A stretch of DNA of 33,419 bases from Schlesneria paludicola DSM 18645 (GTDB taxonomy: Bacteria; Planctomycetota; Planctomycetia; Planctomycetales; Planctomycetaceae). The notes beneath the pieces are model-generated. The model worked only from the letters and a program-made list of their open reading frames with translations, was not told the DNA's origin and searched no databases. The translations under genes and the position numbers were made by a program. Location: positions 1 through 33,419 of the forward strand of contig CAMAYU010000049.1 in the NCBI GenBank assembly GCA_945862235.1, read 5' to 3'. Below are positions 3,773-32,040 of this stretch, one piece after another (position 1 is the stretch's first letter; each line of letters opens with the position of its first letter).

Positions 3773-4456
3773 TTAGTGCAACTCCATTCGCTCGCGATGG
3801 CTTTCGATGTGGGTTCGCAATTCCTGATCGGCTTCACGGACGCGGCCCGACTTGAGTTTGTCGAGGATGAACTGATGGCTGTCGATCCCTTGAGACCATT
3901 CGGCTTTCTTGACACTCTCGCGGAAGCGTTGGAAGAAGACGGCCAGCACGTCGGTGAAGGCCATCAACGGCGAGAGTCCGCTGGCGCAGATCAGCTCGCG
4001 GTGAAAGTCGATGTCCAGCTCGACCCAGCGAGCAAGGCTGCGCGCATGCCGCAGGTCGGCGTTGATGGCATTCAGCTTCACATACAGCGTGTCGTCTCGC
4101 TTCATTCGTCTGGCGACGTGCGGTAGGACGCCCGTTTCGATGAGGACTCGCGTGTCGATCAGTTCCTCGGGCGAGACATCGTGCAGCGCGGGATGGAAGC
4201 CGAGATACTCGGTCACTCGCTCCATGTTGACGCTGCCGACGGTCAGCCCGCGCCCCGGCTTGGCTTCGACGATACCGAGGAACTCCAGCGACTTGGTCGC
4301 CTCGCGCAGGCTGAGCCGGCTGACACCAAACTTCGTCGCCAGCTCGGTCTCCGTCGGCAGCCGGTCGCCCGATTTGAGGTTTCCCTCGACGATGAACGCC
4401 TTCAGTCGATCAGCCACGACATCGCGGAGTTTGGAGCGTGGCACGGTTTCGAGCAT
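3773..4456 (-). CDS. FadR-subfamily GntR transcriptional regulator
   Basis: A 227-residue protein. The N-terminal winged helix-turn-helix (about residues 8-75) contains LPTETELATKFGVSRLSLRE and the GRGLTV wing, typical of the GntR family. The C-terminal part (about 85-220) is an all-helical FCD domain with the expected spaced histidines (DIDFHREL, HQFILDKL, HIESHRERM), which in this family bind a metal and often a carboxylate effector. It diverges from the 2-hydroxyacid dehydrogenase gene at 4615 across a 158 bp gap that holds a 19 bp palindrome. The inference is that it controls the catabolic cluster at 4615-15616 in response to a hydroxy- or oxo-acid. The DNA target and effector are not determined. 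The PSD1 gene lies downstream on the same strand and could share its transcript. Confidence 0.93.
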   Translation of the reverse strand: MLETVPRSKLRDVVADRLKAFIVEGNLKSGDRLPTETELATKFGVSRLSLREATKSLEFLGIVEAKPGRGLTVGSVNMERVTEYLGFHPALHDVSPEELIDTRVLIETGVLPHVARRMKRDDTLYVKLNAINADLRHARSLARWVELDIDFHRELICASGLSPLMAFTDVLAVFFQRFRESVKKAEWSQGIDSHQFILDKLKSGRVREADQELRTHIESHRERMELH

Positions 4457-4614: not shown

Positions 4615-5580
4615 ATGAAGATCGCGATCACCGATTACTCGTTTCCGAGCCTCGACATCGAAGAGGGCATTCTCTGTCCGCTGGGTCACGAGATCGCCGC
4701 TTGGAAAGAAAAACGGACAGCGACTGAGTTGCCGCAGTTGGTAGCCGATGCCGACGCGGTCATTACGCAGTTCGCTCCGGTGAATGCCGAAGTCATCGCC
4801 AGCATGAAGCAGGCGAAGGTCATCGTGCGTTATGGCATTGGAGTGGACAACGTCGATCTCGAAGCGGCGAAGGCTCGCGGCATTCCGGTCTGCAACGTAC
4901 CGGACTACTGCATCGACGAAGTGGCCGATCAGACGTTGGCTTTTCTACTCGCAACGACGCGGCAGGTCGTGACCAACTGCGTGCGGAACCGCGAGGGAAA
5001 ATGGGGCCTGGCGACGCCGCTCGATCAGATGCGGGCACTGCGCGATCTGACGGTGGGAGTCGTCGGCTTGGGACGGATCGGGCGCGAAGTGGTGGCTCGG
5101 TTGCGAGCCTTCAAGTGCAAAGTCCTCGTGCATGACCCGGTCGTCGCGACGGGAGAGATCGAGCAAGCTGGCGGCAAACCGGTCGCCCTGCGTGAGCTGC
5201 TCTCGCAGTCGGACGTCATCTCGTTGCATTGCCCCTCGACGGCAAACACACGTGGGATGATCAACCGCGAATCGCTGGCGATCACGAGGCGCGGCGTGAT
5301 CCTCATCAACGTGGCTCGCGGCGATCTCGTTGATTCCGCCGCGCTGACCGAGGCGTTGCAGAACGGTCACGTTTCGGCCGCCGCACTGGACGTATTCGCT
5401 CCCGAACCGATTCCTGCCGATCATCCGATTCTGAAAATGGACAACGTCATCGTCGCCTCGCACATCGCCTCGTGCAGTGTCCCTGCCGTGCGGAAGCTGC
5501 GGGAAACGGCGGCCAATCTCGCCGCGATGGCACTGCGTGGGGACGTGTTGCCGAATGTGGTGAACGGGGTTGGGAAGTAG
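4615..5580 (+). CDS. D-isomer-specific 2-hydroxyacid dehydrogenase
   Basis: A 321-residue protein, the normal length for the family. It catalyses NAD(P)-linked interconversion of a 2-hydroxy acid and a 2-oxo acid. The Rossmann motif GLGRIG lies at 151-156. The catalytic triad is visible as R235 (NVARGDLVD), E264 (FAPEP) and H283 (ASHIAS). The stretch VPDYCIDEVADQTLAFLLAT resembles the CtBP/phosphoglycerate-dehydrogenase-like branch. The start ATG follows GAGGAGC at a suitable distance. It is the first gene of the plus-strand cluster and diverges from the regulator. Together with the Ldh2-type enzyme at 6603 the cluster has two different 2-hydroxyacid dehydrogenases, possibly for opposite stereochemistry or successive steps. 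The exact substrate is unknown. Confidence 0.93.
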   Translation: MKIAITDYSFPSLDIEEGILCPLGHEIAAWKEKRTATELPQLVADADAVITQFAPVNAEVIASMKQAKVIVRYGIGVDNVDLEAAKARGIPVCNVPDYCIDEVADQTLAFLLATTRQVVTNCVRNREGKWGLATPLDQMRALRDLTVGVVGLGRIGREVVARLRAFKCKVLVHDPVVATGEIEQAGGKPVALRELLSQSDVISLHCPSTANTRGMINRESLAITRRGVILINVARGDLVDSAALTEALQNGHVSAAALDVFAPEPIPADHPILKMDNVIVASHIASCSVPAVRKLRETAANLAAMALRGDVLPNVVNGVGK

Positions 5581-5664: not shown

Positions 5665-6606
5665 ATGAGCGATTCGGTTCTGGTCACGGGTGGCGGCGGG
5701 TTCATCGGCACGTGGGTGCTGCGCGAGTTGTTGTCGCGCGGGTTCCGGCCGGTGGCGTTTGACGTCCAGAAGAACGATGAGCGTTGGCAGCGCATTCTTG
5801 GGGGCGACGCGTCGAAGGTCGCGTTCGTCGCGGGAAGCCTGCTGGATCGCGGGCTGTTGCAGCGGACAGCCGACGAGCAGCACGTCTCGCACATCATTCA
5901 TCTCGCCGCGCTGCTGACCCCGAACTGCCAGCAGGATCCGTATGCCGGGTGCGAGGTTAACGTGCTGGGAAGTGTCGCTCTGTTTGAGTTGGCGCGGGCG
6001 TGTGCCGGGCAGATCAAGGGGATTTCGTATGCGAGTTCCTATGCGGTCTACGGTCCCGAAGCGGACGACAACTCGCTGGGACTGACGGCCGCCGACAATC
6101 GGCCGCCGTCGTTTTACGGGGCGTTCAAGATGGCGGTCGATTCGATCGCCGAGCAGTATTGGCGGCACTTCGGCATCGCATCGGTCGGCATTCGGCCGCA
6201 TGTCGCTTACGGGCCGGAGCGGACCGTGGGGCTGACCGCCGGTCCGTCGCAAGCCTGCCGGGCGGCGGCGTTGGGCGAGCCGTATTCGATCAACTACACC
6301 GGCCGCGTCGGGTACGACTACGTTGAGGATGTGGCCCGCGCATTCGTTCAATCGGCGCTCGAGACGCCGCGTGGTTCGACCGTCGTCGATCTGCCAAGCC
6401 AACTCGCGACGACCGAAGAGTTCGTCAACGTCATCGATCGAGTTGTTCCCGGTGCGGGTTCGCGGATCACCGTCGATGGTCCTTCAATTCCCTCCAATAT
6501 CCCGCCGAAGCCGCACTACATTTCGGAACTCTTCCCCGACTGGCGAGCGACAACGTTGGAAGAGGGTGTGCGGCAGACGGTCGAGTTCTATCGGAAGCAG
6601 TCATGA
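5665..6606 (+). CDS. NAD-dependent epimerase/dehydratase (extended SDR)
   Basis: A 313-residue protein. The N-terminal cofactor motif GGGGFIG (residues 9-15) is the extended-SDR form, and the catalytic YGAFK gives Tyr151 and Lys155. SYAVYGPEA shortly before carries the usual catalytic-region layout of nucleotide-sugar epimerases and dehydratases. AGAGGGC upstream of ATG 5665 is a plausible ribosome binding site. The stop overlaps the next start by 4 bp (ATGA, 6603-6606), so the two genes are translationally coupled. Context suggests it acts on a sugar acid or a related hydroxylated acid rather than in cell-wall sugar synthesis, but this is inference. Confidence 0.9.
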   Translation: MSDSVLVTGGGGFIGTWVLRELLSRGFRPVAFDVQKNDERWQRILGGDASKVAFVAGSLLDRGLLQRTADEQHVSHIIHLAALLTPNCQQDPYAGCEVNVLGSVALFELARACAGQIKGISYASSYAVYGPEADDNSLGLTAADNRPPSFYGAFKMAVDSIAEQYWRHFGIASVGIRPHVAYGPERTVGLTAGPSQACRAAALGEPYSINYTGRVGYDYVEDVARAFVQSALETPRGSTVVDLPSQLATTEEFVNVIDRVVPGAGSRITVDGPSIPSNIPPKPHYISELFPDWRATTLEEGVRQTVEFYRKQS

Positions 6607-7649
6607 CGATCTCCATCGAATCCCTCACCACCTTCTGCATCACCGCCCTGACCAAGGTTGGCATGTCTCGCGCGGATGCGGAGACGACTGCGAACGCCCT
6701 CGTCACGACAGACGCGATGGGCGTCTTCACGCACGGGACGAAGTTGTTGGGCGGGTATCTCAACCGTCTCCAGGGGGGCGGTTATCGGGCGACGGCCGCG
6801 CCGCGGATCGAGCGTGAAGGGCCGGGTTGGGCGATCATCGACGGTGAGTCGGCACTCGGTCAGGTCGGCAGCGTGTTTGCCATGCGGACGGCAATAGCGA
6901 AGGCGAAGCAGGTCGGCATCGCGTATGTCGGCCTGACGAACACGGGGCACATCGGAGCGGCCGGTTACTACGCAGTCCTCGCAGCGCGCGAAGGCTTGAT
7001 CGGGATGATCACGGGCAACGACATGCCGAGCGTCGCGGCACCCGGTTCGCGTGGAGCGGTCCTCGGCAGCAATCCGATCGCGTACGGCGTCCCGGTCTTC
7101 GACGGCGATCCGATCATTCTCGACATGGCGACGGCGGCGGTCGCGGGAGGCAAGGTCTACGCGGCGCATCAACGAGGCGAACCGATCCCGCCGACGTGGC
7201 TGATCGGCCCCGACGGCCAGCCGACGACCGACGGCAGTCTCTACCCGTATCAGGCGTCGCTCGCTCCGATGGCCGGGCACAAGGGCTACGGTTTTGGACT
7301 GTGGTGCGAGATCCTGTCGGGCATCCTCCCCGGTGGCCGCATCACCTGGGAGATCGGCAGTTGGATGTTCGACGACACCTCGCAGCCGTCGCGGCACAAT
7401 GCGTCGTTCATCGCGATCGACATCGCGGCGATGATCCCTCGCGAACAATTCCAGCAGCGCCTGCGAAAGCTGATCGACGAAATTCACGGAGCTAAGACAG
7501 CCGACGGCATCGAACGTGTCCTCCTTCCCGGCGAGCGGGAAGGAATCTTGTTGCGACGAGCGCAGACGGAGGGGATCGCGTTGCCTCCCGATGTCATTGC
7601 GAAGTTGGAAGTCGTGGCGAAGGATTTTGATGTGGAGTTGAATCTGTAA
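6603..7649 (+). CDS. Ldh2-family (malate/L-lactate/ureidoglycolate-type) dehydrogenase
   Basis: A 348-residue protein, full length for the malate/L-lactate dehydrogenase (Ldh_2) family, which is unrelated to classic lactate dehydrogenase and oxidises 2-hydroxy acids with NAD(P). Visible family features are TDAMGVFTHGTKLL near residue 37, the TGHIGAAGYY block carrying the likely catalytic histidine (about 118), GSNPIAYGVP, and MAGHKGYGFGLWCEILSG. The start overlaps the epimerase stop by 4 bp. Its likely role is to produce the 2-oxo acid consumed by the E1/E2 complex encoded downstream. The true substrate could be lactate-like, malate-like or a sugar acid. Confidence 0.93.
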   Translation: MTISIESLTTFCITALTKVGMSRADAETTANALVTTDAMGVFTHGTKLLGGYLNRLQGGGYRATAAPRIEREGPGWAIIDGESALGQVGSVFAMRTAIAKAKQVGIAYVGLTNTGHIGAAGYYAVLAAREGLIGMITGNDMPSVAAPGSRGAVLGSNPIAYGVPVFDGDPIILDMATAAVAGGKVYAAHQRGEPIPPTWLIGPDGQPTTDGSLYPYQASLAPMAGHKGYGFGLWCEILSGILPGGRITWEIGSWMFDDTSQPSRHNASFIAIDIAAMIPREQFQQRLRKLIDEIHGAKTADGIERVLLPGEREGILLRRAQTEGIALPPDVIAKLEVVAKDFDVELNL

Positions 7650-9590: not shown

Positions 9591-9661
9591 ATAAAATCGT
9601 CCGATGTCGTCTTATTCGCCATCGACACTCACACCGAATGACCTCTCATACCGAATGACCA

Positions 9662-11230
9662 ATGACTAGTGACTCCCATCGCCTGCCTCCGTGGACCACC
9701 GCCGAACTCCCCGAGCCGAAGCCGCTCTCGTGGAAGAATTGGTCCAGCTTCATTGGGCCGGGCATCGTGATGATGGGGATTCAGATTGGCGGGGGCGAGT
9801 GGTTGCTCGGGCCAGCCGTCACGGCCAAGTACGGCGGCGGGCTGATGTGGATCGCGACGGCGGCTATCATCTTTCAAGTCTTCTATAACCTCGAATGCGG
9901 GCGCTACGCCCTCTATTGCGGTGAGCCGGTCTTCACCGGTTTCATGCGCTGTTCGCCGGGACCGAGGTTTTGGGTTGGGTTGATGCTGTTCTTGAATGTG
10001 TCGGCACTCGTGCCGGGACTCTCGACGCACGGCGCGGCCATGATTGCGTCGCTCATTCTGGATCGACCGCCGACCGTCGATGACCGCGGGCTCATCACGC
10101 CGCTGGCGTATGCGTGCTTGTTGGGGGTCGCGCTGCCGGTGTTGTTGGGAGGCAAGGTTTACAACGTCTTGCAGGGCGTGATGACGGTGAAGGTTGTCGT
10201 CGTACTCGGCTTCTGCCTGTTTCTGGGTGTGACCTGCGTGAGTGCGTCGAGCTGGTGGAATGTCTTCAGCGGGTTCGTGAAGTTTGGCAACGTGCCGGTC
10301 AGTGATGGTCACGGCGGCGAGGTGTTGACGAACGGCTTCCTGCATTGGTGGGAACACGGCGAGTGGCCGGTGATGTCATCCGCCAGCATCATTGTGATCG
10401 GAGCCTTCGCGGGCTATGCGGGTGGGGGTGGCTTGGCGAACTCAACGTACTCGAACTTCGTCCGCGACAAGGGTTGGGGCATGGGCAGCCAAGTTGGTGC
10501 GATTCCCAGTGCGGTCGGGGGTCGCAGTGTGACACTGAGCCATGTTGGTAAGGTTTTCGAGTTGACCGCCGAGAACATGCGTCGGTGGCGCGGCTGGTGG
10601 CGGTACGTGCTGACCGACCAATTGATCGTCTGGGCACCGGGTTGCTTCATGGGGATGGCGTTACCCGCGTTGTTGTCGATGCAGTTCGCCCAATACTCGA
10701 CGATCACTTACGAGCAGGCGGGGATGGCGCAGGCCCTCATCACGGCTGACGGGTTGCGCAACGCAGGGTTCTCTCCCGTGCTGGGCAAAGTGTTGTGGAT
10801 CACCGCAATCTTCACCGGCCTGACGGTGATGCTCCCCAGCCAGATGTCGATCGTCGATGACTTCAGCCGCCGCTGGACCGACGCCATCTGGTCGGCCAAT
10901 CGGCGCGTGCGCGAGTCCATGCAGGCTCATCAAGTGAAGTACATCTACTACACGATCCTCGGCAGCTACGTCCTATGGTCGTTCGTCTGTGCGTACCTCT
11001 TCAGCAATGCTCCGAGGCTGATGACCGACTTCATCGCCAACTGCAACAACTTGGCGCTCGGCGTCACGTCGTTTCAACTGCTGTGGATCAACCACACGCT
11101 GCTGCCGCGCGAACTGCGGCCGCGCTGGTATCACTCGGCGGGAGTTTTGGGTTGCGGCGTGTTTTACTTAGGACTGACGACGCTTGTGTTCGTATTCAAA
11201 ATCTGGCCACTAATCGTAGGCCCGCGCTGA
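9662..11230 (+). CDS. Nramp-related membrane transporter lacking canonical metal-site motifs
   Basis: A 522-residue protein with about eleven hydrophobic segments. The first helix reads FIGPGIVMMGIQIGGGEW, which aligns to Nramp TM1, but the metal-binding DPGN is GPGI. In the sixth-helix region the usual MPH is replaced by a glycine-rich GYAGGGGLANSTYSNFVRDK. These changes remove the known Mn/Fe ligands, so a different substrate is likely. Lying among hydroxy-acid catabolic genes, it is a candidate importer of the organic substrate or of its metal complex. The start ATG lies in a run of TGACCAATGAC-like repeats without a clear ribosome binding site, so the exact start is uncertain. Membership of the wider superfamily is fairly secure; specificity is not. 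Confidence 0.8.
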   Translation: MTSDSHRLPPWTTAELPEPKPLSWKNWSSFIGPGIVMMGIQIGGGEWLLGPAVTAKYGGGLMWIATAAIIFQVFYNLECGRYALYCGEPVFTGFMRCSPGPRFWVGLMLFLNVSALVPGLSTHGAAMIASLILDRPPTVDDRGLITPLAYACLLGVALPVLLGGKVYNVLQGVMTVKVVVVLGFCLFLGVTCVSASSWWNVFSGFVKFGNVPVSDGHGGEVLTNGFLHWWEHGEWPVMSSASIIVIGAFAGYAGGGGLANSTYSNFVRDKGWGMGSQVGAIPSAVGGRSVTLSHVGKVFELTAENMRRWRGWWRYVLTDQLIVWAPGCFMGMALPALLSMQFAQYSTITYEQAGMAQALITADGLRNAGFSPVLGKVLWITAIFTGLTVMLPSQMSIVDDFSRRWTDAIWSANRRVRESMQAHQVKYIYYTILGSYVLWSFVCAYLFSNAPRLMTDFIANCNNLALGVTSFQLLWINHTLLPRELRPRWYHSAGVLGCGVFYLGLTTLVFVFKIWPLIVGPR

Positions 11231-11259: not shown

Positions 11260-12087
11260 ATGAAACTGTTTGATCTCACCAGCCGGGTGGCGGTTGTCTC
11301 TGGTGCCGCTCAAGGACTGGGGCGGGCCACCGCGCTCGCTGTTGCGGAATCTGGCGCTGATGTCATGTTGGTCGACCGCAACTTGGAAGGTGCGGAAGCG
11401 ACCGCCGAGCAGATTCGTTCACTGGGCCGGAAGGCGGTTGCCGCGAACACTAACGTTTCGGACCCGGACGCGATTCGGGAATTGTTCCGACAGGTCGATG
11501 CCGAGTTCGGGCGCGTCGATTTTCTCGGCAACATCGCCGGTGACGGGCATCTCGCCAAGCCGGAAGATCTGACGATCGAGGATCTGCATCGAGTCATGCA
11601 GAATCTCGTCGTCGGTCGGTTTGCGATGTGTCAGGAGGCGGGGCGGCGGATGCTGGCGCAGGGACGAGGTTCGATCATGAACATCGGATCGCTCGCCAGC
11701 ACGACGGCGCTGGGCCGCGGGCACATTGCCTACAGCATGGCGATGGGGGCGGTCGTGCAGATGACTCGCGAACTGAGTACGGAGTGGAGCCATCGCGGCG
11801 TCCGGGTGAATTGCGTCACGCCAGCACAGGTCGTCAACCCGAGCTTGGCCGCGCGCATGGAAGCGGACCCCACTCTCGAAGGCCGGTTTCTCAAAGGGAT
11901 CCCCGCCGGACGACTCGGCCAGCCGCGCGACATCATGGGGCTGGCGGTGTTGCTCGCCTCCGACGCGTCCGAGTGGATCACCGGAGCGATCATCCCAATG
12001 GACGGCGGCAACATGGCGATGAATGCGGGAGGCACACCCGGACACGAACAACGAGACGTTCAAACATTTCGCGCCGAAGCCAAATGA
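11260..12087 (+). CDS. SDR-family oxidoreductase with catalytic lysine replaced by methionine
   Basis: A 275-residue classical short-chain dehydrogenase/reductase. GAAQGLG forms the cofactor site, NIAG is conserved, Ser144 lies in NIGS, and Tyr158 in AYSMAMGAV. The family motif YxxxK appears here as Y-S-M-A-M: the lysine position (162) is ATG, methionine. The C-terminal MDGG is normal. A strong ribosome binding site, GAGGGGG, precedes the start. The tail after DGGNMAMNAGG is extended by about 20 polar residues. The gene lies between the transporter and the E1 gene, so a redox step on the cluster's substrate is expected. Loss of the lysine may reduce or change activity. Sequencing error is possible but would need a single base change. 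Confidence 0.9.
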   Translation: MKLFDLTSRVAVVSGAAQGLGRATALAVAESGADVMLVDRNLEGAEATAEQIRSLGRKAVAANTNVSDPDAIRELFRQVDAEFGRVDFLGNIAGDGHLAKPEDLTIEDLHRVMQNLVVGRFAMCQEAGRRMLAQGRGSIMNIGSLASTTALGRGHIAYSMAMGAVVQMTRELSTEWSHRGVRVNCVTPAQVVNPSLAARMEADPTLEGRFLKGIPAGRLGQPRDIMGLAVLLASDASEWITGAIIPMDGGNMAMNAGGTPGHEQRDVQTFRAEAK

Positions 12088-12239: not shown

Positions 12240-14246
12240 ATGACGAATGACCAATTCCTTTCCCTCTTCCGCACGATGCTCATCATCCGGCATACGGAGG
12301 AGGAACTCGCGCGCTGCCATCAGCGAGGGCTCATCTTCGGGGCGTGTCACACCTATGTCGGGCAGGAGGCGATCTCGACCGGCGTGTGTGCTCATCTGAC
12401 GAACGACGATCCAATTTTCAGCACGCACCGTGGGCATGGGCATGCTCTGGCGAAGGGGATGCCACCGCGAGAACTCATGGCCGAGTTGTTCGGCCGGGCG
12501 ACCGGGTGCTCGCGCGGGCGGGGTGGTTCGATGCACCTCTTCTCGCCCGAGATCGGCATGATGGGGACGAGCGGCATCGTGGGGCCGTGCATCTTGCAGG
12601 CGTGCGGCGGCGGGTACAGCTCGAAGCTGATGAAGACGGGGCGAGTCGCAGCGGCGTTCTTCGGCGACGGGGCCGTCAACAACGGCGCGTTTCATGAGGG
12701 ACTGAATATGGCCGCCATCTGGAAGCTGCCGGTCCTGTTCATCTGCGAGAACAATCAGTTCGCGACCGAGGTGCCGTTCTCGTATTCCAGCGGCAGTCCT
12801 CACGTCGGGCGTCGGGCGGCCAACTATGGCCTGCCCGGTTTTGAGGTCGATGGCAACGACGTGCTGGCCGTCACGGAGGTCGCGCGCGAGGCGGTGGCTC
12901 GGGCGCGGTCCGGTGGCGGCGCGACGCTCATCGAGTGCAAGACGTATCGCACGCGTGCTCACGCCGAAGGGATGGGTGATTTCACCTATCGCACTCGCGA
13001 GCAGGTCGATGAGTGGAAACTTCGCTGCCCGATCGCCTCGCTGCGGCAACGACTGCTGACCGAGTTCGGCATCGCCGAAGCACAGCTTCAGCAGGTCGAG
13101 TCCGAGATCACCGCACTCGTGGCCGAGTCGCGTCAGTTCGCCGAGAGCAGCCCGTTGCCGGACGCGGCGACAGCGGCGGTGAATGTCTATGCGACGCGGA
13201 AGACGGGCATTCCTGCCCGTCCCGCTTCAAACGCGGACGGGCAGAATCGCCCATCCTCAGGCGATCCATCGCGCGTCATCACCTTCACACAGGCGACACA
13301 CGAAGCCCTCTCCGAAGAGATGGCTGTGAACCCGACGATCTTCGTCATGGGCGAGGGGATCGGGATTCGCGGCGGCAACTTCAAGACGACGGCCGGACTG
13401 TACGACCTCTACGGTCCCGAGCGTCTCTGCGACACGCCGATCTCCGAACGAGGCTTCGTGGGACTTGCAGGCGGCGCGGCGATGACGGGGACTCGGCCAG
13501 TGATCGACTTCATGTTCGCCGACTTCATCCTCGACTCGGTCGGCGAAATCGTGAACCAGATCGCCAAGATGCAGTACATGTCGAGCGGTCGTCTGAAGAT
13601 GCCGGTCCTGCTGCGAGGCTGCATCGGCATCGGTCACTCGGCGGCGACGCATCATTCCGGCAGTTACTACGCGATGTACGCTCAAGTCCCCGGCTTGCGT
13701 GTCGTCGTGCCGTCCAACGCCTACGACGCGAAGGGACTGCTGAAGCACGCGCTGCGGTGCGACGACCCGGTGATGTTCCTCGAACATCGCGAGATCCTCA
13801 CAACAAAGTGTCACGTCCCGACGGAAGACTACGAGATCGAGTTCGGCCGCGCGGCGATCGTTCGCGTGGGGCGAGACGTCACGGTCGTCGCGCTCGCTCG
13901 GATGGTCCATCTCACCCTGTCGGTGTGTGAGGAACTGGAACGCGACGGCATCTCGGTCGAACTGGTCGATCCGCGCACGGTCTCACCGCTCGACACCGAC
14001 ACGATCCTGCAATCGGTCGCGAAGACGGGTCGCCTGTTGATCGTCGATGAGCCGCCCGCCCCGTGCGGCTTCGCGGCCGAGATCGCAGCTCAGGTCACTG
14101 ACGCCGGCTTCGATGATCTCGATGCTCCGATCCGTCGTCTGACCGGCGTCTTCACCCCCACCCCGTACAGTCCGCCGCTCGAAGCCGCCGTCGTGCCGAC
14201 AGCCGCAATGATCGCGGACGCGATTCGTTCGCTGGTGAAGGAGTAA
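12240..14246 (+). CDS. Fused E1 alpha-beta subunit of a 2-oxoacid (pyruvate/acetoin-type) dehydrogenase complex
   Basis: A 668-residue protein. Residues 1-310 are an E1 alpha (TPP-dependent dehydrogenase) with the thiamine diphosphate signature GDG at 142-144 and NN at 171-172, and the block STHRGHGHALAKG. Residues 347-668 are an E1 beta/transketolase-like half (MGEGIGIRGGNF, TPISERGFVGLAGG, EHREIL). Alpha and beta are usually separate proteins; here a roughly 35-residue linker joins them. Residues about 320-342 of the linker are encoded by a dispersed palindromic repeat (see 13198-13257). The nearest known types appear to be acetoin or pyruvate dehydrogenase E1, judged by eye. AAGG lies 6 bp before the start. 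The E2 gene begins 2 bp after the stop, so both make one complex. The substrate is probably the 2-oxo acid formed by the upstream dehydrogenases. Confidence 0.92.
   Translation: MTNDQFLSLFRTMLIIRHTEEELARCHQRGLIFGACHTYVGQEAISTGVCAHLTNDDPIFSTHRGHGHALAKGMPPRELMAELFGRATGCSRGRGGSMHLFSPEIGMMGTSGIVGPCILQACGGGYSSKLMKTGRVAAAFFGDGAVNNGAFHEGLNMAAIWKLPVLFICENNQFATEVPFSYSSGSPHVGRRAANYGLPGFEVDGNDVLAVTEVAREAVARARSGGGATLIECKTYRTRAHAEGMGDFTYRTREQVDEWKLRCPIASLRQRLLTEFGIAEAQLQQVESEITALVAESRQFAESSPLPDAATAAVNVYATRKTGIPARPASNADGQNRPSSGDPSRVITFTQATHEALSEEMAVNPTIFVMGEGIGIRGGNFKTTAGLYDLYGPERLCDTPISERGFVGLAGGAAMTGTRPVIDFMFADFILDSVGEIVNQIAKMQYMSSGRLKMPVLLRGCIGIGHSAATHHSGSYYAMYAQVPGLRVVVPSNAYDAKGLLKHALRCDDPVMFLEHREILTTKCHVPTEDYEIEFGRAAIVRVGRDVTVVALARMVHLTLSVCEELERDGISVELVDPRTVSPLDTDTILQSVAKTGRLLIVDEPPAPCGFAAEIAAQVTDAGFDDLDAPIRRLTGVFTPTPYSPPLEAAVVPTAAMIADAIRSLVKE
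13198..13257. repeat. GGGCACTCCTGCCC-family palindrome inside the E1 fusion gene
   Basis: Arms at about 13198-13224 (core GACGGGCATTCCTGCCCGTC) and 13233-13257 (core GGACGGGCAGAATCGCCCAT) are complementary. Each arm is also palindromic in itself. It is read as part of the linker peptide with TGIPARPA at residues 322-329. Other family members lie at 21032-21100, 26659-26722 and 30802-30885. Confidence 0.85.
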
Positions 14247-14248
14247 TC

Positions 14249-15616
14249 ATGTCCCACGAAATCGTGATCCCGCGTCTCGGTTGGTCGATGGAAGAGGGGA
14301 CGTTCGTCGGCTGGTTGAAGAAGGACGGCGACCTCGTGCGACGCGGCGATGCCGTGTTCGAACTGGAGGGCGAAAAGGCCTCGCAGGACATCGAGGCGGT
14401 CGATGAAGGAATCCTGAGAATCCCGCCCACGGGACCAAAGCCCGGCAGTCTGCTCAAGGTCGGAGCCGTCGTCGGGTATCTCGTCGCGGCGGGGGAAGAG
14501 ACTCTGTGGACCGTCCCGAGTCCAATGACAAACAGTCCACCGGCGCTGGAATCCGCTTTGCCGCCGGCGGCGGCTCCATCCGTTCGGCGGCAGGCAAGGG
14601 AGGCGGGCATCGCGATCAACGACGTGGCTGGAACCGGCCCCGGAGGCCGCGTCATGGCAGCGGATGTTCATCGAACGCGGACATCTCCGCAGCAGCAGGA
14701 ACCGGTCACCGCCCTGCCGATTGCGAACCCCCGTCCCACCCACGGCCGGTCAGCAGTTGCATCACCGCGCGCGAGGCGAGTCGCCGCGGAACTCGGCTTG
14801 AATTGGAGCACGCTCACGGGAACTGGTGCCAATGGCCGCATTCGCGAACGTGACGTGCGGGCCGCCGCCGCTTCGGGCCACTCATCGACCTCGGCGGCTC
14901 GCGCCGGACAACGATTGCCGCTGACGAGTCGTCGTCGGGTCATCGCGCAGCGCATGGTCGCCAGCCGTCAACAGACGGTTCCCGTCACGCTAACCACGAA
15001 AGCGGATGCAACAAACCTCGTCAACCTGCGCGAGCAATTCAAGCGGCGCGAGCCGTTGAAATCGGTCGGCGGTTCGACTCCGATTCCCAGCTATCAGGAC
15101 ATCATCACCAAGCTCGTGGCCGAGGTTCTCAAGCGGCATCCGCGGCTTGCCAGTCGTTGGGACGAGGACGCGATCGTTCTGCCTGCCGACGATGAACTGC
15201 ATCTCGGCCTGGCGGTCGATACGGAGGAGGGCTTGCTTGTGCCGGTCATTCGTAACGTGGGCGGACTATCACTCAGCGAATTGGCCGGTCAGTCACGACG
15301 ACTCGCCGATCAGGCTCGCGCTGGGAAGCTCGTCGCCACCGAGATGCAGGGTGGCGTCTTCACGATCACGAATCTGGGCGCGTTCGGCATCGACGCCTTC
15401 ACGCCGGTCATCAACCTTCCCGAGGCGGCCATTCTCGGACTGGGGGCGATTCGCCGCGAACCGGTCGTGCTCGACGATGGCCAGATCGCCGCTCGACATC
15501 AACTGACGTTGAGCCTCACGTTCGATCATCGCATCGTCGATGGAGCTCCCGCCGCCCGCTTCCTGCAAGACGTGGTCAACGCCATCGCCAACCCGTCGGC
15601 GTGGCTGCTGGGCTAA
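14249..15616 (+). CDS. E2 dihydrolipoamide acyltransferase with two E3-binding domains
   Basis: A 455-residue protein. The N-terminal lipoyl domain (1-80) has the lipoylated lysine as K43 in ELEGEKASQ. Two peripheral-subunit-binding domains follow: about 110-142 (RRQAREAG...GTGPGGRVMAADV) and about 170-205 (ASPRARRVAAELG...GTGANGRIRERDV). One is usual. The catalytic domain (about 222-455) ends with DHRIVDG, giving the active-site His427. It transfers the acyl group from lipoamide to CoA. It starts 2 bp after the E1 stop. No E3 (lipoamide dehydrogenase) gene is in the window, so the complex must borrow one. The stop codon TAA overlaps the first arm of the repeat at 15615-15730. Confidence 0.95.
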   Translation: MSHEIVIPRLGWSMEEGTFVGWLKKDGDLVRRGDAVFELEGEKASQDIEAVDEGILRIPPTGPKPGSLLKVGAVVGYLVAAGEETLWTVPSPMTNSPPALESALPPAAAPSVRRQAREAGIAINDVAGTGPGGRVMAADVHRTRTSPQQQEPVTALPIANPRPTHGRSAVASPRARRVAAELGLNWSTLTGTGANGRIRERDVRAAAASGHSSTSAARAGQRLPLTSRRRVIAQRMVASRQQTVPVTLTTKADATNLVNLREQFKRREPLKSVGGSTPIPSYQDIITKLVAEVLKRHPRLASRWDEDAIVLPADDELHLGLAVDTEEGLLVPVIRNVGGLSLSELAGQSRRLADQARAGKLVATEMQGGVFTITNLGAFGIDAFTPVINLPEAAILGLGAIRREPVVLDDGQIAARHQLTLSLTFDHRIVDGAPAARFLQDVVNAIANPSAWLLG

Positions 15617-28707: not shown

Positions 28708-31700
28708 TCACTGCCGCGACTTGAGAAACGCGATCAGGTCGAGAAGCTGCTCGCGCGTGAGCTGCGTATCGAGTCCAGCGGGCATGACGGAGACGGTGCC
28801 GGGAAGAATCTCTTCGATTTCGGCGCGAGCGACTCGCGCTTCGTCTTTGGCTCCCGTCGCGAGGACGATCTCGTCGGGAGTCTCGCGCCGGATGAGGCCG
28901 TTCACCTGCTTGCCCGCTTTGGTGACGATCAGGACCGGCTCGTAACTTCTCACGAAACTGACGCTCGGAAAGAGCAACGCTTCGAGCAGGTCACGCTCGG
29001 ACCTGATCTTGCCGACGCGTGACAGATCGGGGCCGATGTTGCCTCCCTTGTAGCCGATCGCGTGGCAGGCAATGCACGCCGCCTTCGAGTTCGCGAAGAC
29101 AAGCTGCCCGCGCCGGATGTCCCCTTCTCCGACATGAGCGACCATCTCATCCAGCCGCTCCTTCTGCTTGGTCGCCTCAATGTTGATCGCCGCGTAGAGT
29201 GCCTCGGCCTGCTGTTGAACGCTGGCCGGAAACTTGGCGAGCCTCAGCTTCACCGCGTCCACGCGCAGGCTGGTCAACACGGGCGATTGCTTCAGCGCCG
29301 CGACGAGCTTCATACCGACAGCTTCATCCGTGGCCGACTCAAAGACCGCGAGCAATCGATTCAGTTCCAGCGGCCCGACGCGCGGGATGGCCTCTGCCAA
29401 CGCCGACTGCTGTTCGGAGTTGAGCCTTGTCTTGAGCAGCGCTTCGACCGCAGAGGAACGCGCCGCAACAGAAGCCTCTTCACCGAGATTGCCGGTGAGC
29501 AGCGCGAAGTGTTGCGGTTCGAGTGGCCCTGCTCCGGCAGGGATTGCGGCCAGTGCGGCGATTCGCGTTTGGCTTGCGATCTTGTCCGACGAAGCGAACT
29601 TTCGCAGCCCCTTCACCAGCGATTCCATCTCCGTTTTCGGCAGCGGAACGGCGTGAATGACCATGACCGCGTTGCCCTTCCACGAGTCGTCGTCTGCCAT
29701 GAGCATTTCAGTCAGCGCGGTGAGCCATGAGAGCGGCATCTCCTTCAATCCCGAAGCTTCCATCGCCTCGAGCGACAGCAGTCGAGTCGAGCCATCCCGA
29801 TCAGTAGCGGCGTTGATATGGCTCGCCAGAAGTTCCTGCACGCTCGGCGTCGCTGCGAATTTGGCCAATAATTCGCGAAATTCGAGATATTCCTTTCGAA
29901 GCCAATTCGTCTTCACAAGCTGCCCGCGCAGATGGTCGGCCACGGCGTTGCCCCACTCGGCGTGGCGCGAGGTCAGCCACAACGCGGTCTCGCGAAGCGT
30001 GATGTCCTCCGACGACAGTAACGGCACGACCTGTTCGGGCGTCAATCCGCCGCCCGGCATCTGGTCGAGAGCGATCATCGCGACTCGCCGCACCTGCGGA
30101 TCGGGGCTGCTGAGTCCGACGGCCGTCCCCTGCGGATCGGCGATCTCGATGAGAGCGAACGTGACCGCATGTTCCATCACGCGGTCGGCCTGCGAGACAT
30201 CGACGAAGGTGGCGGGCTTCGCGCCGTCGTTTGTGGCTTCCCCCTCACGTACCAAAGTGACTGCCGTTCCGAGGCTCAAGCATTTTTCCGTTGCGGCCTC
30301 CAGTAGGTGCGGTACCGCCGACTTGTCTCCCAGCCGACCGAGAGTCTCGGCACTCAGTCGCATGTTCTGTCGCGTGCAGAGTCGCAGCAGTTTGAGCAAC
30401 TGCGGCATTGCCGCGTGGTCTCGCCACAGACTGACCGATTGAAGTGCAACCTGCCGGATATCACGATGGCCATCAAACAGAGCTTCGCGCACGAGTTGCC
30501 GCGCCTCGGGAGCGTCGATTCGGGTGAGCGTCCAGACGGCGTTCCGACGCGCCGTTTCGGAGGCGCGTCGTGAGCGAAACGGTCCGTTCAAGTCGATGGC
30601 GTTGTCGTCGCTCAATGTGCCGCCCGCTTCCAACTCGCGCAGCAGCGGCTTGAGTGCGGCGATCACGTTCGTGACATCGTGCTTTGCCAGATCACGGATC
30701 GCGCGCCGCTGAACGGCTGGACGCGGATCGTCGAGCAACCGAGCCAACTCGTTCGGCGTGAGCTTCGCCCAATCGAGCTTCAACCCGCGCGGGTCGCCCC
30801 CCGTAGGCGAGTCATTCCCATGACTCGCATTCTGCTTCGCATCCGCTTTCGGCAAAGCGGGACGGGCAGGAGTGCCCATCCTACGGACGCGATAGATCGC
30901 GCCGAGGACATCCGGCTTGTCGAGCTGCGAAGTCGGGCAACAGAGTTTGTACCAGCCGCCCGTGTCGAGGATGACGAGGCTGCCGTCTGCGTCTTCCAAC
31001 ACGTCGGTCGGATGGAAGTCGAGATTGTTCGAGACCACGAAGTCTGAGTCGGTCGAAGTGAACGTCGCACCGCTCGGCTTCAGCTCATGACGCGAGACCT
31101 TGTACATATTGAACTGACACGCGAAGAGGTTGTCGCGGAACTTGGTGCCGAAGACCTCGGACTCGTACCGCGTCAGCCCGCACGGCGCGGCGGCTCCCAT
31201 GTGAGCGAGCGGCGGGAGCAAATCACCCGTGCGCGGATGAAAGTCGGTCACGTTGTGGACCTTGCCGTAGACGCCGCCATAAACGGCGTGAATCAGCCCG
31301 TCGCGCAACCCGCCGCCGGGGTTCTGCAAAAAAGTCGTCGTGAAGATTCGCTCGCCGCCGGGAGTGAAGACGACATCAACCGGGTTGTCCATCCCGCCCG
31401 TCATCACGTTCTCAACGGGACCGGCCCCTTCCGCGCGACGCCGGAAAATGTGAGACGCCTTCGTGACGAGCGGCTTCTTCCCGTGAGGCTGCTCATACGT
31501 CTGCTCGGCAAACGCCCCCTTGCACCAGTAAATGAAACCGTCCGGCCCGAGATACGGCCCGTGCAGATCGTTCGCACAACCGGTCAGCGTCTTCCCCTCG
31601 AACCACTCGACCCGCTGATCGGCCACGCCGTCGCCATCAGTGTCCGTCAGCTTCCAGATGCTCGGCGGAGCGGCCACATACAGCGAACCGTCGTGCCACA

Positions 31701-32040
31701 ACGTCCCCTCGGGAAACATCATCTTGTCGGCAAAGACGACACTCTTGTCGAATCGCCCGTCGCCATCCGTGTCCTCCAGCCGCACGATGCGATGCGTCGG
31801 GTTTGCCAACTGTTCCTTCACCGGCGCATTCGACCCCGATGAATCCGTGACATAGAGCCGCCCGAGTTCATCAAAGTCCGCCGTGATCGGCCGCTCAACC
31901 AGAGGCGACTTCGCCGCCACCTCGATCTCAAACCCTTCCGGCAGAGTGAACGTATGACCGTTCAGAAGCTGTTCGTTGGCGAGAGACTGATTTGCGGCGA
32001 ACAGTCCTAACAGTGACAAAGTGGCCAACATACGGGTCAT
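28708..32040 (-). CDS. PVC-type CxxCH haem-binding protein with beta-propeller and HEAT-like repeats
   Basis: A 1110-residue protein. Signal peptide 1-21 (MTRMLATLSLLGLFAANQSL). Residues about 25-380 form a glucose/sorbosone dehydrogenase-like propeller with DTDGDGRFDKSVVFADKMMF and DTDGDGVADQ loops that probably bind calcium. About 430-900 is helical, with HEAT-like repeats (RPAVQRRAIRDLAKHDVTNV, EARQLVREALFDGHRDIRQV). A C-terminal cytochrome c domain has CIACH at 989-993. This architecture is the planctomycete membrane-bound dehydrogenase/CxxCH family, thought to be periplasmic; the electron donor is unknown. Residues about 386-413 are encoded by a palindromic repeat (MGTPARPALPK...), a departure from the family sequence. 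The gene ends convergently with the serine hydrolase, and a DUF1501 gene lies upstream on the same strand. Confidence 0.93.
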   Translation of the reverse strand: MTRMLATLSLLGLFAANQSLANEQLLNGHTFTLPEGFEIEVAAKSPLVERPITADFDELGRLYVTDSSGSNAPVKEQLANPTHRIVRLEDTDGDGRFDKSVVFADKMMFPEGTLWHDGSLYVAAPPSIWKLTDTDGDGVADQRVEWFEGKTLTGCANDLHGPYLGPDGFIYWCKGAFAEQTYEQPHGKKPLVTKASHIFRRRAEGAGPVENVMTGGMDNPVDVVFTPGGERIFTTTFLQNPGGGLRDGLIHAVYGGVYGKVHNVTDFHPRTGDLLPPLAHMGAAAPCGLTRYESEVFGTKFRDNLFACQFNMYKVSRHELKPSGATFTSTDSDFVVSNNLDFHPTDVLEDADGSLVILDTGGWYKLCCPTSQLDKPDVLGAIYRVRRMGTPARPALPKADAKQNASHGNDSPTGGDPRGLKLDWAKLTPNELARLLDDPRPAVQRRAIRDLAKHDVTNVIAALKPLLRELEAGGTLSDDNAIDLNGPFRSRRASETARRNAVWTLTRIDAPEARQLVREALFDGHRDIRQVALQSVSLWRDHAAMPQLLKLLRLCTRQNMRLSAETLGRLGDKSAVPHLLEAATEKCLSLGTAVTLVREGEATNDGAKPATFVDVSQADRVMEHAVTFALIEIADPQGTAVGLSSPDPQVRRVAMIALDQMPGGGLTPEQVVPLLSSEDITLRETALWLTSRHAEWGNAVADHLRGQLVKTNWLRKEYLEFRELLAKFAATPSVQELLASHINAATDRDGSTRLLSLEAMEASGLKEMPLSWLTALTEMLMADDDSWKGNAVMVIHAVPLPKTEMESLVKGLRKFASSDKIASQTRIAALAAIPAGAGPLEPQHFALLTGNLGEEASVAARSSAVEALLKTRLNSEQQSALAEAIPRVGPLELNRLLAVFESATDEAVGMKLVAALKQSPVLTSLRVDAVKLRLAKFPASVQQQAEALYAAINIEATKQKERLDEMVAHVGEGDIRRGQLVFANSKAACIACHAIGYKGGNIGPDLSRVGKIRSERDLLEALLFPSVSFVRSYEPVLIVTKAGKQVNGLIRRETPDEIVLATGAKDEARVARAEIEEILPGTVSVMPAGLDTQLTREQLLDLIAFLKSRQ
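30802..30885. repeat. GGGCACTCCTGCCC-family element inside the CxxCH gene
   Basis: 30857-30885 is the standard arm (GGGACGGGCAGGAGTGCCCA and onward). The other side, 30802-30828 (CGTAGGCGAGTCATTCCCAT and onward), is a variant arm that is palindromic by itself. Read on the minus strand it gives MGTPARPA at residues 388-395, the same frame and nearly the same peptide as in the E1 gene. Confidence 0.8.

Follow-up and report, generated by a model that had tools for sequence, protein, structure and literature searches.

An Nramp-related transporter without the canonical metal motifs, encoded among acid-catabolism genes: a candidate importer of organic acids

Introduction

The window (the whole stretch of DNA analysed here, 33,419 nucleotides) carries a gene for an Nramp-related transporter that is best read as a LeuT-fold secondary carrier, belonging to an uncharacterised clade and importing an organic acid degraded by the neighbouring operon; the probability attached to this reading is about 0.6. 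A 2-hydroxy, 2-keto or sugar acid with three to six carbons is the probable cargo. Acid import is preferred because an Nramp fold is combined with the loss of the metal motifs, with a strong and conserved linkage to acid catabolism in planctomycetes, and with acid-related neighbours of relatives in an actinobacterium and some haloarchaea. Gene context is the best evidence on the cargo. The new element is the uncharacterised GGGE variant; Nramp-related proteins without DPGN and MPH have already been described (PMC12873925). Should hydroxy or sugar acids indeed be the cargo of this clade, the label is wrong in many genomes, and the dispute over YcsG-like proteins (Mn versus organic acid) becomes testable in a second, independent clade.

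The gene and its family assignment

The open reading frame that the first-pass annotation had placed at 9662–11230 on the forward strand is real; it starts with ATG, encodes 522 residues and has exactly these coordinates (Table 1). Chance or artefact is ruled out by the recurrence of gene and motif in 80 loci. Full-length orthologues (68 to 82% identity) occur in 13 of 14 genomes of the same genus, and the remaining one holds a fragment. At two other loci, the transporter match contains one in-frame stop (L075:309-1880 and L122:10001-11530), reflecting either a broken gene or a sequencing error. A long antisense ORF lies over the transporter gene (9629–10357, reverse strand) and has homologous antisense ORFs at 57 of 81 loci; it is taken as a codon-usage shadow and not as a gene.

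The protein scores 157.7 bits against the NCBIfam model NF037982, ‘Nramp family divalent metal transporter’ (cut-off 50), and this is its only NCBIfam match at E up to 0.001; none of the MntH models is matched, whereas a canonical DPGN protein used for comparison receives 604.1 bits from an MntH model, a difference that speaks for acid import. A Pfam search at E up to 10 returned no family, PF01566 included, a null that is to be read with the HMMER filters in mind, which drop most matches above E ~0.1. The cut-off of NF037982 is passed alike by DPGN, DAGG, GPGS, GAGD, GSGE and GGGE proteins, and the highest of the eight scores belongs to a GSGE protein from Rubrobacter (486.9 bits). Since the model passes every motif type scored, from DPGN to GGGE, its product name is no test of cargo. 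The public product name for such proteins is based on homology: ‘divalent metal transporter’ is the name given by NF037982 and by eight of the nine plasmid records discussed below, the Nonomuraea record being unannotated.

Four genes in the genome that carries the window (6.83 Mb, 97.3% complete) match NF037982. Only one of them, a GSGE gene on contig C123, is also matched by Pfam Nramp, and no DPGN Nramp was seen in this genome. As regards classification, the features of canonical Nramp/SLC11 proteins, namely DPGN in TM1, MPH in TM6 and matches to PF01566 and the MntH models, were not found in the window protein. It falls into the broad Nramp-related group, with a predicted Nramp/LeuT fold whose TM1 and TM6 helices are unwound and with the canonical metal motifs missing.

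Predicted fold

An AlphaFold2 model built from 73 sequences has a mean pLDDT of 84.2 and a pTM of 0.88. Its helices are interrupted at residues 42–43 and 259–260, in keeping with a LeuT fold, in which TM1 and TM6 are unwound. In VIA-align comparisons, the top chains are DraNramp (Z 30.3), human NRAMP1 (29.7) and BfraNramp (29.1), followed by YcsG (9a52; 27.9), EleNRMT (27.1) and NRAT (25.7). The Nramp fold signature noticed in the first-pass annotation is thus retained, with solved Nramps closest to the predicted fold and with a match to NF037982. The 19 best-ranked entries by Z all belong to the Nramp family, the last being level with AdiC (25.2); ScaDMT (25.0) and EcoDMT (24.2) are Nramp entries that rank below AdiC, and the amino-acid carrier SLC7A10 reaches 24.5. 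A Foldseek list is headed by EcoDMT and EleNRMT, with NKCC1 and ApcT mixed in. Because AdiC ties with or outranks some Nramps and the Foldseek list is mixed, the lead over other carriers is clear for the top entries only.

That the amino-acid carriers AdiC and SLC7A10 are level with some Nramp entries speaks for a cargo of another kind, either a small neutral or amino-acid-like solute whose carrier merely shares the operon's regulation, or a by-product that is exported. This is improbable, as the identified recurring partners of the gene (see below) belong to kinds of enzyme that act on acids and sugars, namely oxidoreductases, hydrolases, a kinase and enzymes of acyl transfer.

The site in TM1 and TM6

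Placement of the site rests on alignment and secondary structure. The first-pass annotation had taken GPGI as the equivalent of DPGN. This TM1 register is wrong, and was rejected on the basis of a profile alignment to human DMT1 and BfraNramp and of a 35-sequence alignment; GPGI pairs with GPGF, GPGL or GPAF at the start of TM1, a stretch kept by canonical Nramps. In searches against solved structures, phmmer with the single window protein found none, and a profile of 23 homologues was needed. This profile aligns GPG with the TM1-opening GPG of human DMT1 (E 1.5e-5) and BfraNramp (E 1.2e-4) and pairs DPGN with GgGE, in agreement with the 35-sequence alignment. The Asp of DPGN is Gly43 in the window protein and the Asn is Glu46. 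In TM6, MPH is absent, as had been claimed, with GGL at the aligned positions 256–258, and the reported glycine-rich stretch is present (residues 251–264). The statement that both metal motifs are missing therefore stands for the known DPGN and MPH, but the acid of the site is not lost; because the Asn of DPGN became Glu46, a carboxylate still lies near the site.

Table 1. Coordinates of the transporter gene, its site residues and the neighbouring genes in the window. Recurrence is given as the number of loci with a partner; ‘with room’ marks loci with enough flanking DNA.
Feature	Position	Strand	Basis and recurrence
GntR/FCD regulator, divergent from the cluster	3773..4456	-	PF00392, PF07729; 15/81 loci, window included
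D-2-hydroxyacid dehydrogenase (HADH)	4615..5580	+	PF02826; 21/46 loci with room
NAD-dependent epimerase/dehydratase	5665..6606	+	PF01370; 6/80 loci
Ldh_2 enzyme, malate/L-lactate dehydrogenase type (LDH2)	6603..7649	+	PF02615; 17/53 loci with room
Cyclase-family protein (CYC), 584 aa	7753..9507	+	PF04199; 33/69 loci with room
Nramp-related transporter gene	9662..11230	+	ATG start, 522 aa, ~11 membrane helices (read from the predicted model)
GPGI, residues 32-35, start of TM1; not the metal motif	9755..9766	+	profile and 35-sequence alignments
GGGE, residues 43-46, at the position of DPGN; Glu46 invariant	9788..9799	+	alignments; helix break 42-43 in the model
Lys177, in helix 166-192, taken as TM5	10190..10192	+	73/73 in alignment A3
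GYAGGGGLANSTYS, residues 251-264, around the TM6 break, at the position of GATVMPH; Asn260 invariant	10412..10453	+	alignments, model
SDR oxidoreductase, directly downstream of the transporter	11260..12087	+	PF13561; 53/74 loci with room
Fused alpha-beta E1, 2-oxoacid dehydrogenase-type complex	12240..14246	+	PF00676, PF02779, PF02780; 40/62 loci with room
E2 acyltransferase of the complex	14249..15616	+	PF00198; 36/55 loci with room

Glu46 is kept in all 73 rows of alignment A3, in which Asn260 and Lys177 are likewise invariant. The 80 loci give 81 translated matches, every one of which has GGEW (79 GGGEW and 2 AGGEW). This conservation of Glu46 and GGEW is far beyond chance. In the 35-sequence set, Asn260 is common to clades A to D, and Lys177 is found in A and B only. 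The 35 proteins, all from Planctomycetota, form a ladder of TM1 sites (DPGN, DAGG, GPGT, GPGS, GAGD, GSGE and GGGE), along which the TM6 site passes from GATVMPH through GTTVAPW, GTTVVPY and GGVGGTVT to GYAGGGGLANS. The NRMT signature (DxxG in TM1 and TxxA/T in TM6) was not found, there being a Gly at the Asp position and a Glu at the Gly position.

In the proposed mechanism of acid import, the operon's acid would be the cargo and would be moved inwards; proton coupling may run through Glu46, and Lys177 and Asn260 may bind the carboxylate or take part in coupling. The residues Glu46 and Asn260, which the predicted model puts at or beside the helix breaks of TM1 and TM6, could also bind metal. 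Import of Mn2+ or Mg2+ through a site rebuilt from Glu46, Asn260 and backbone carbonyls, feeding metal-dependent enzymes of the operon, is the chief competitor, and an unlikely one. The operon's enzymes are of types that often need metal. Divalent-cation import is favoured by the invariance of Glu46 and by the lack of a visible DPGN Nramp in the genome, so that Mn might come in through one of its four paralogues; the loss of both canonical motifs argues against it. Very improbable is a combined arrangement in which metal and acid move together as a complex, the acid supplying the ligands that the protein has lost. Such a complex would reconcile the effects on Mn with those on substrate growth that have been reported for catabolic-operon members of the Nramp family, and it would suit the invariance of both the acidic Glu46 and the basic Lys177. 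Clades C, D and E, however, lack Lys177, which is thus no general feature.

Gene neighbourhood

The location of the gene among acid-catabolism genes, noted in the first-pass annotation, is borne out by Pfam and NCBIfam scans of the neighbours. HADH, the epimerase, Ldh_2 and the cyclase precede the transporter in this order, and SDR, E1 and E2 follow it. A keto-deoxy or hydroxy acid suits the combination of HADH, LDH2, cyclase, FAA hydrolase (found at related loci, see below), SDR and E1/E2. Among the matches listed (for SDR, the best 25 of 219), no cluster enzyme passes a substrate-specific NCBIfam cut-off; apart from that of the transporter, the only model passed among these matches is a pyruvate dehydrogenase E1-beta subfamily, by E1. 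At 584 residues, the cyclase-family protein has about twice the usual length, and its C-terminal part weakly resembles arylformamidase (37.4 bits).

Two features of the regulation stand against divalent-cation import. The weak NCBIfam matches of the GntR regulator, all below cut-off, include NanR, LldR, GlcC and ExuR, which are regulators of acid or sugar use. Moreover, a search of the window and of six other loci gave no Rfam family at the gathering threshold, and therefore no manganese riboswitch. A promoter scan gave 0 promoter-like sites against 2.4 expected, and a terminator scan 6 terminator-like sites against 8.7 expected. Further downstream in the window, the reverse strand encodes a protein of 1110 residues (28708–32040) that contains DUF7133 and HEAT repeats and matches cytochrome c weakly.

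Linkage across related loci

A scan of named genomes gave at least 530 relatives, of which the best 80 loci (56 to 83% identical) were kept. A partner was defined as a same-strand homologue of a window gene with at least 40% identity, and denominators count the loci with enough flanking DNA. At least one of six partners (SDR, E1, E2, CYC, LDH2 and HADH) is present in 66 of the 80 loci. Transporter and SDR are separated by a median of 72 bases, and in 48 of 53 cases by no more than 300. An FAA hydrolase recurs in 19 loci, with 2,4-didehydro-3-deoxy-L-rhamnonate hydrolase as its best NCBIfam match (222.5 bits, below the cut-off of 500), and an FGGY kinase in 16.

The remaining 14 of the 80 loci have none of the six partners, and this counts against acid import. 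Those with long flanks on at least one side are L096, L116, L124, L134, L137, L138, L143, L151 and L152. The neighbours of five partnerless loci were scanned: an SMP-30/gluconolactonase gene lies near the transporter in L096 and L116, L137 has an oxidoreductase, a hydrolase and other genes, and nothing telling was seen among the scanned neighbours in L124 and L134. With at least 530 relatives in all, these 80 loci represent the nearest ones, and the linkage may not extend to members further away.

Paralogous clades

In a maximum-likelihood tree of 46 rows, clades A (with the window protein), B, C and D are joined with two haloarchaeal proteins, one from Rubrobacter and one from Aureimonas (support 100/100, 26 rows). 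The motif is mostly GGGE in A, B and C, with GAGE in L064 and AGGE in L053 as exceptions. DPGN, DAGG and GPGT/GPGS proteins form a separate group (9 rows, 100/99). The deep joins of the tree are tentative, because the program flagged long branches that meet.

Clade C is paralogous and is also present in the window's genome (contig C159). A UxuA-like D-mannonate dehydratase adjoins the clade C gene in 7 of the 22 loci fetched, which speaks for acid import; it was not found in the other 15 (one of which, L232, has almost no upstream sequence), and ten clade C genes or loci without UxuA have mixed neighbours, one of them an Ldh_2 enzyme. The clade C loci without UxuA count against acid import, as do the two other paralogues. 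No clear acid theme emerges around clade B, where the neighbours are a GTPase, an acetyltransferase, an ABC protein, an esterase-like protein and a VTT-domain protein; the GSGE paralogue is flanked by genes for an ABC protein, an SMP-30 lactonase and a tRNA-modifying enzyme.

The VTT-domain membrane protein of the clade B neighbourhood (L055:8020-8736, in the window's genome) comes after the clade B gene and has homologous ORFs at two other loci. SMP-30/gluconolactonase-like genes (L057:7751-8923, L096:12006-12896 and L116:12385-13374) lie beside further Nramp-related genes, one of which is the GSGE paralogue in the window's genome.

Known Nramp-related systems and the cargo

A 2026 preprint (PMC12873925) describes the Nramp-related proteins as paraphyletic, as lacking the canonical motifs of TM1 and TM6, and as uncharacterised except for the NRMT and MntG groups. 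An outgroup beside NRMT is mentioned in PMC9606685 and PMC10606218, and is termed ‘orphan’ in the latter. With its Nramp fold and without DPGN and MPH, the window protein resembles the Nramp-related proteins of PMC12873925; its clade is marked by the GGGE motif, the glycine-rich TM6 and the acid-catabolism operon.

The first-pass annotation had also reasoned from the loss of the motifs to a different cargo. On its own, this argument is weak, because NRMTs with DxxG carry Mg2+ (PMC8806188) and B. subtilis YcsG/MntG, placed among the motif-lacking Nramp-related groups (PMC12873925), is a reported Mn2+ importer, whose overexpression raises cell Mn and whose gene lies in a 5-oxoprolinase operon (PMC10448178). 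MumT of a urea operon likewise raises cell Mn and is a reported manganese importer (PMC5050338). All three systems favour divalent-cation import. Against it stands PxpT of C. glutamicum, an Nramp-family protein 50% identical to YcsG that is needed for growth on 5-oxoproline, although its authors leave metal transport possible; pxpT adjoins a divergent GntR gene and pxpABC (PMC13274462, 2026). With PxpT on one side and YcsG and MumT on the other, both readings, metal and organic acid, are in print. Among the open-licence papers listed, judged by title and opening of the abstract, PxpT is the only Nramp-related protein found to be tied to a sugar acid, lactate or another non-metal cargo.

The window protein shares with PxpT and YcsG/MntG the position of an Nramp-family protein inside a catabolic operon, and with PxpT the divergent GntR regulator. 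PxpT and YcsG sit with the 5-oxoprolinase genes pxpABC, whereas the window gene does not; PxpA (PF03746) has no match in the window's genome or among the cluster genes scanned, and the likeness is drawn from the published descriptions and from the YcsG structure. Nramp fold and an altered TM1/TM6 site are also shared with EleNRMT, but NRMTs keep the Asp (DxxG), where the window protein has Gly, with Glu at the fourth position.

A different cargo, and specifically an organic acid, thus remains the best reading through the evidence of context. The earlier guess of an organic anion gains support from the linkage to SDR, E1/E2, cyclase and hydroxyacid dehydrogenase, from relatives that in some cases lie near lactate, tetronate or keto-deoxy-acid genes, and from PxpT. 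It is possible, if doubtful, that organic acids are the cargo of an entire branch of the Nramp superfamily, one that spans bacteria and haloarchaea and has the acidic residue of TM1 moved from position 1 to position 4. Given the paraphyly of Nramp-related proteins with respect to the metal carriers (PMC12873925), transport of organic solutes may be the older function and metal transport a later invention.

Relatives on plasmids of other phyla

Nine of 13 plasmid records with relatives were examined, the other four being further Haloarcula plasmids. An L-lactate permease and an FAD/Fe-S protein lie near the Nramp relative in Halobellus limi, Haloarcula hispanica and Haloarcula marismortui; as a permease is already present, lactate is possibly carried by it in these three haloarchaea, which counts against acid import. 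Haloarcula pelagica has the FAD/Fe-S protein and rhcF (2,4-diketo-3-deoxy-L-rhamnonate hydrolase), but also branched-chain amino acid ABC genes. The acid theme is absent or loose in the Halomicrococcus, Aureimonas and Deinococcus records, again counting against acid import; isocitrate lyase lies two genes from the relative in Aureimonas, as does D-arabinono-1,4-lactone oxidase in Deinococcus. With the Nonomuraea record, which is without annotation, four of the nine are thus loose, lacking in an acid theme or unannotated.

The acid theme is seen in the actinobacterium Rubrobacter indicoceani, where a plasmid carries two Nramp genes together with a cyclase, UxaA, a GntR regulator and Lut-type lactate genes, and the same cluster holds a four-carbon acid sugar kinase, PdxA and a lactate racemase-domain gene. 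The two Nramp-related genes of this lactate/tetronate-type cluster (L223:485-7308) differ from each other and fall into separate branches of the tree.
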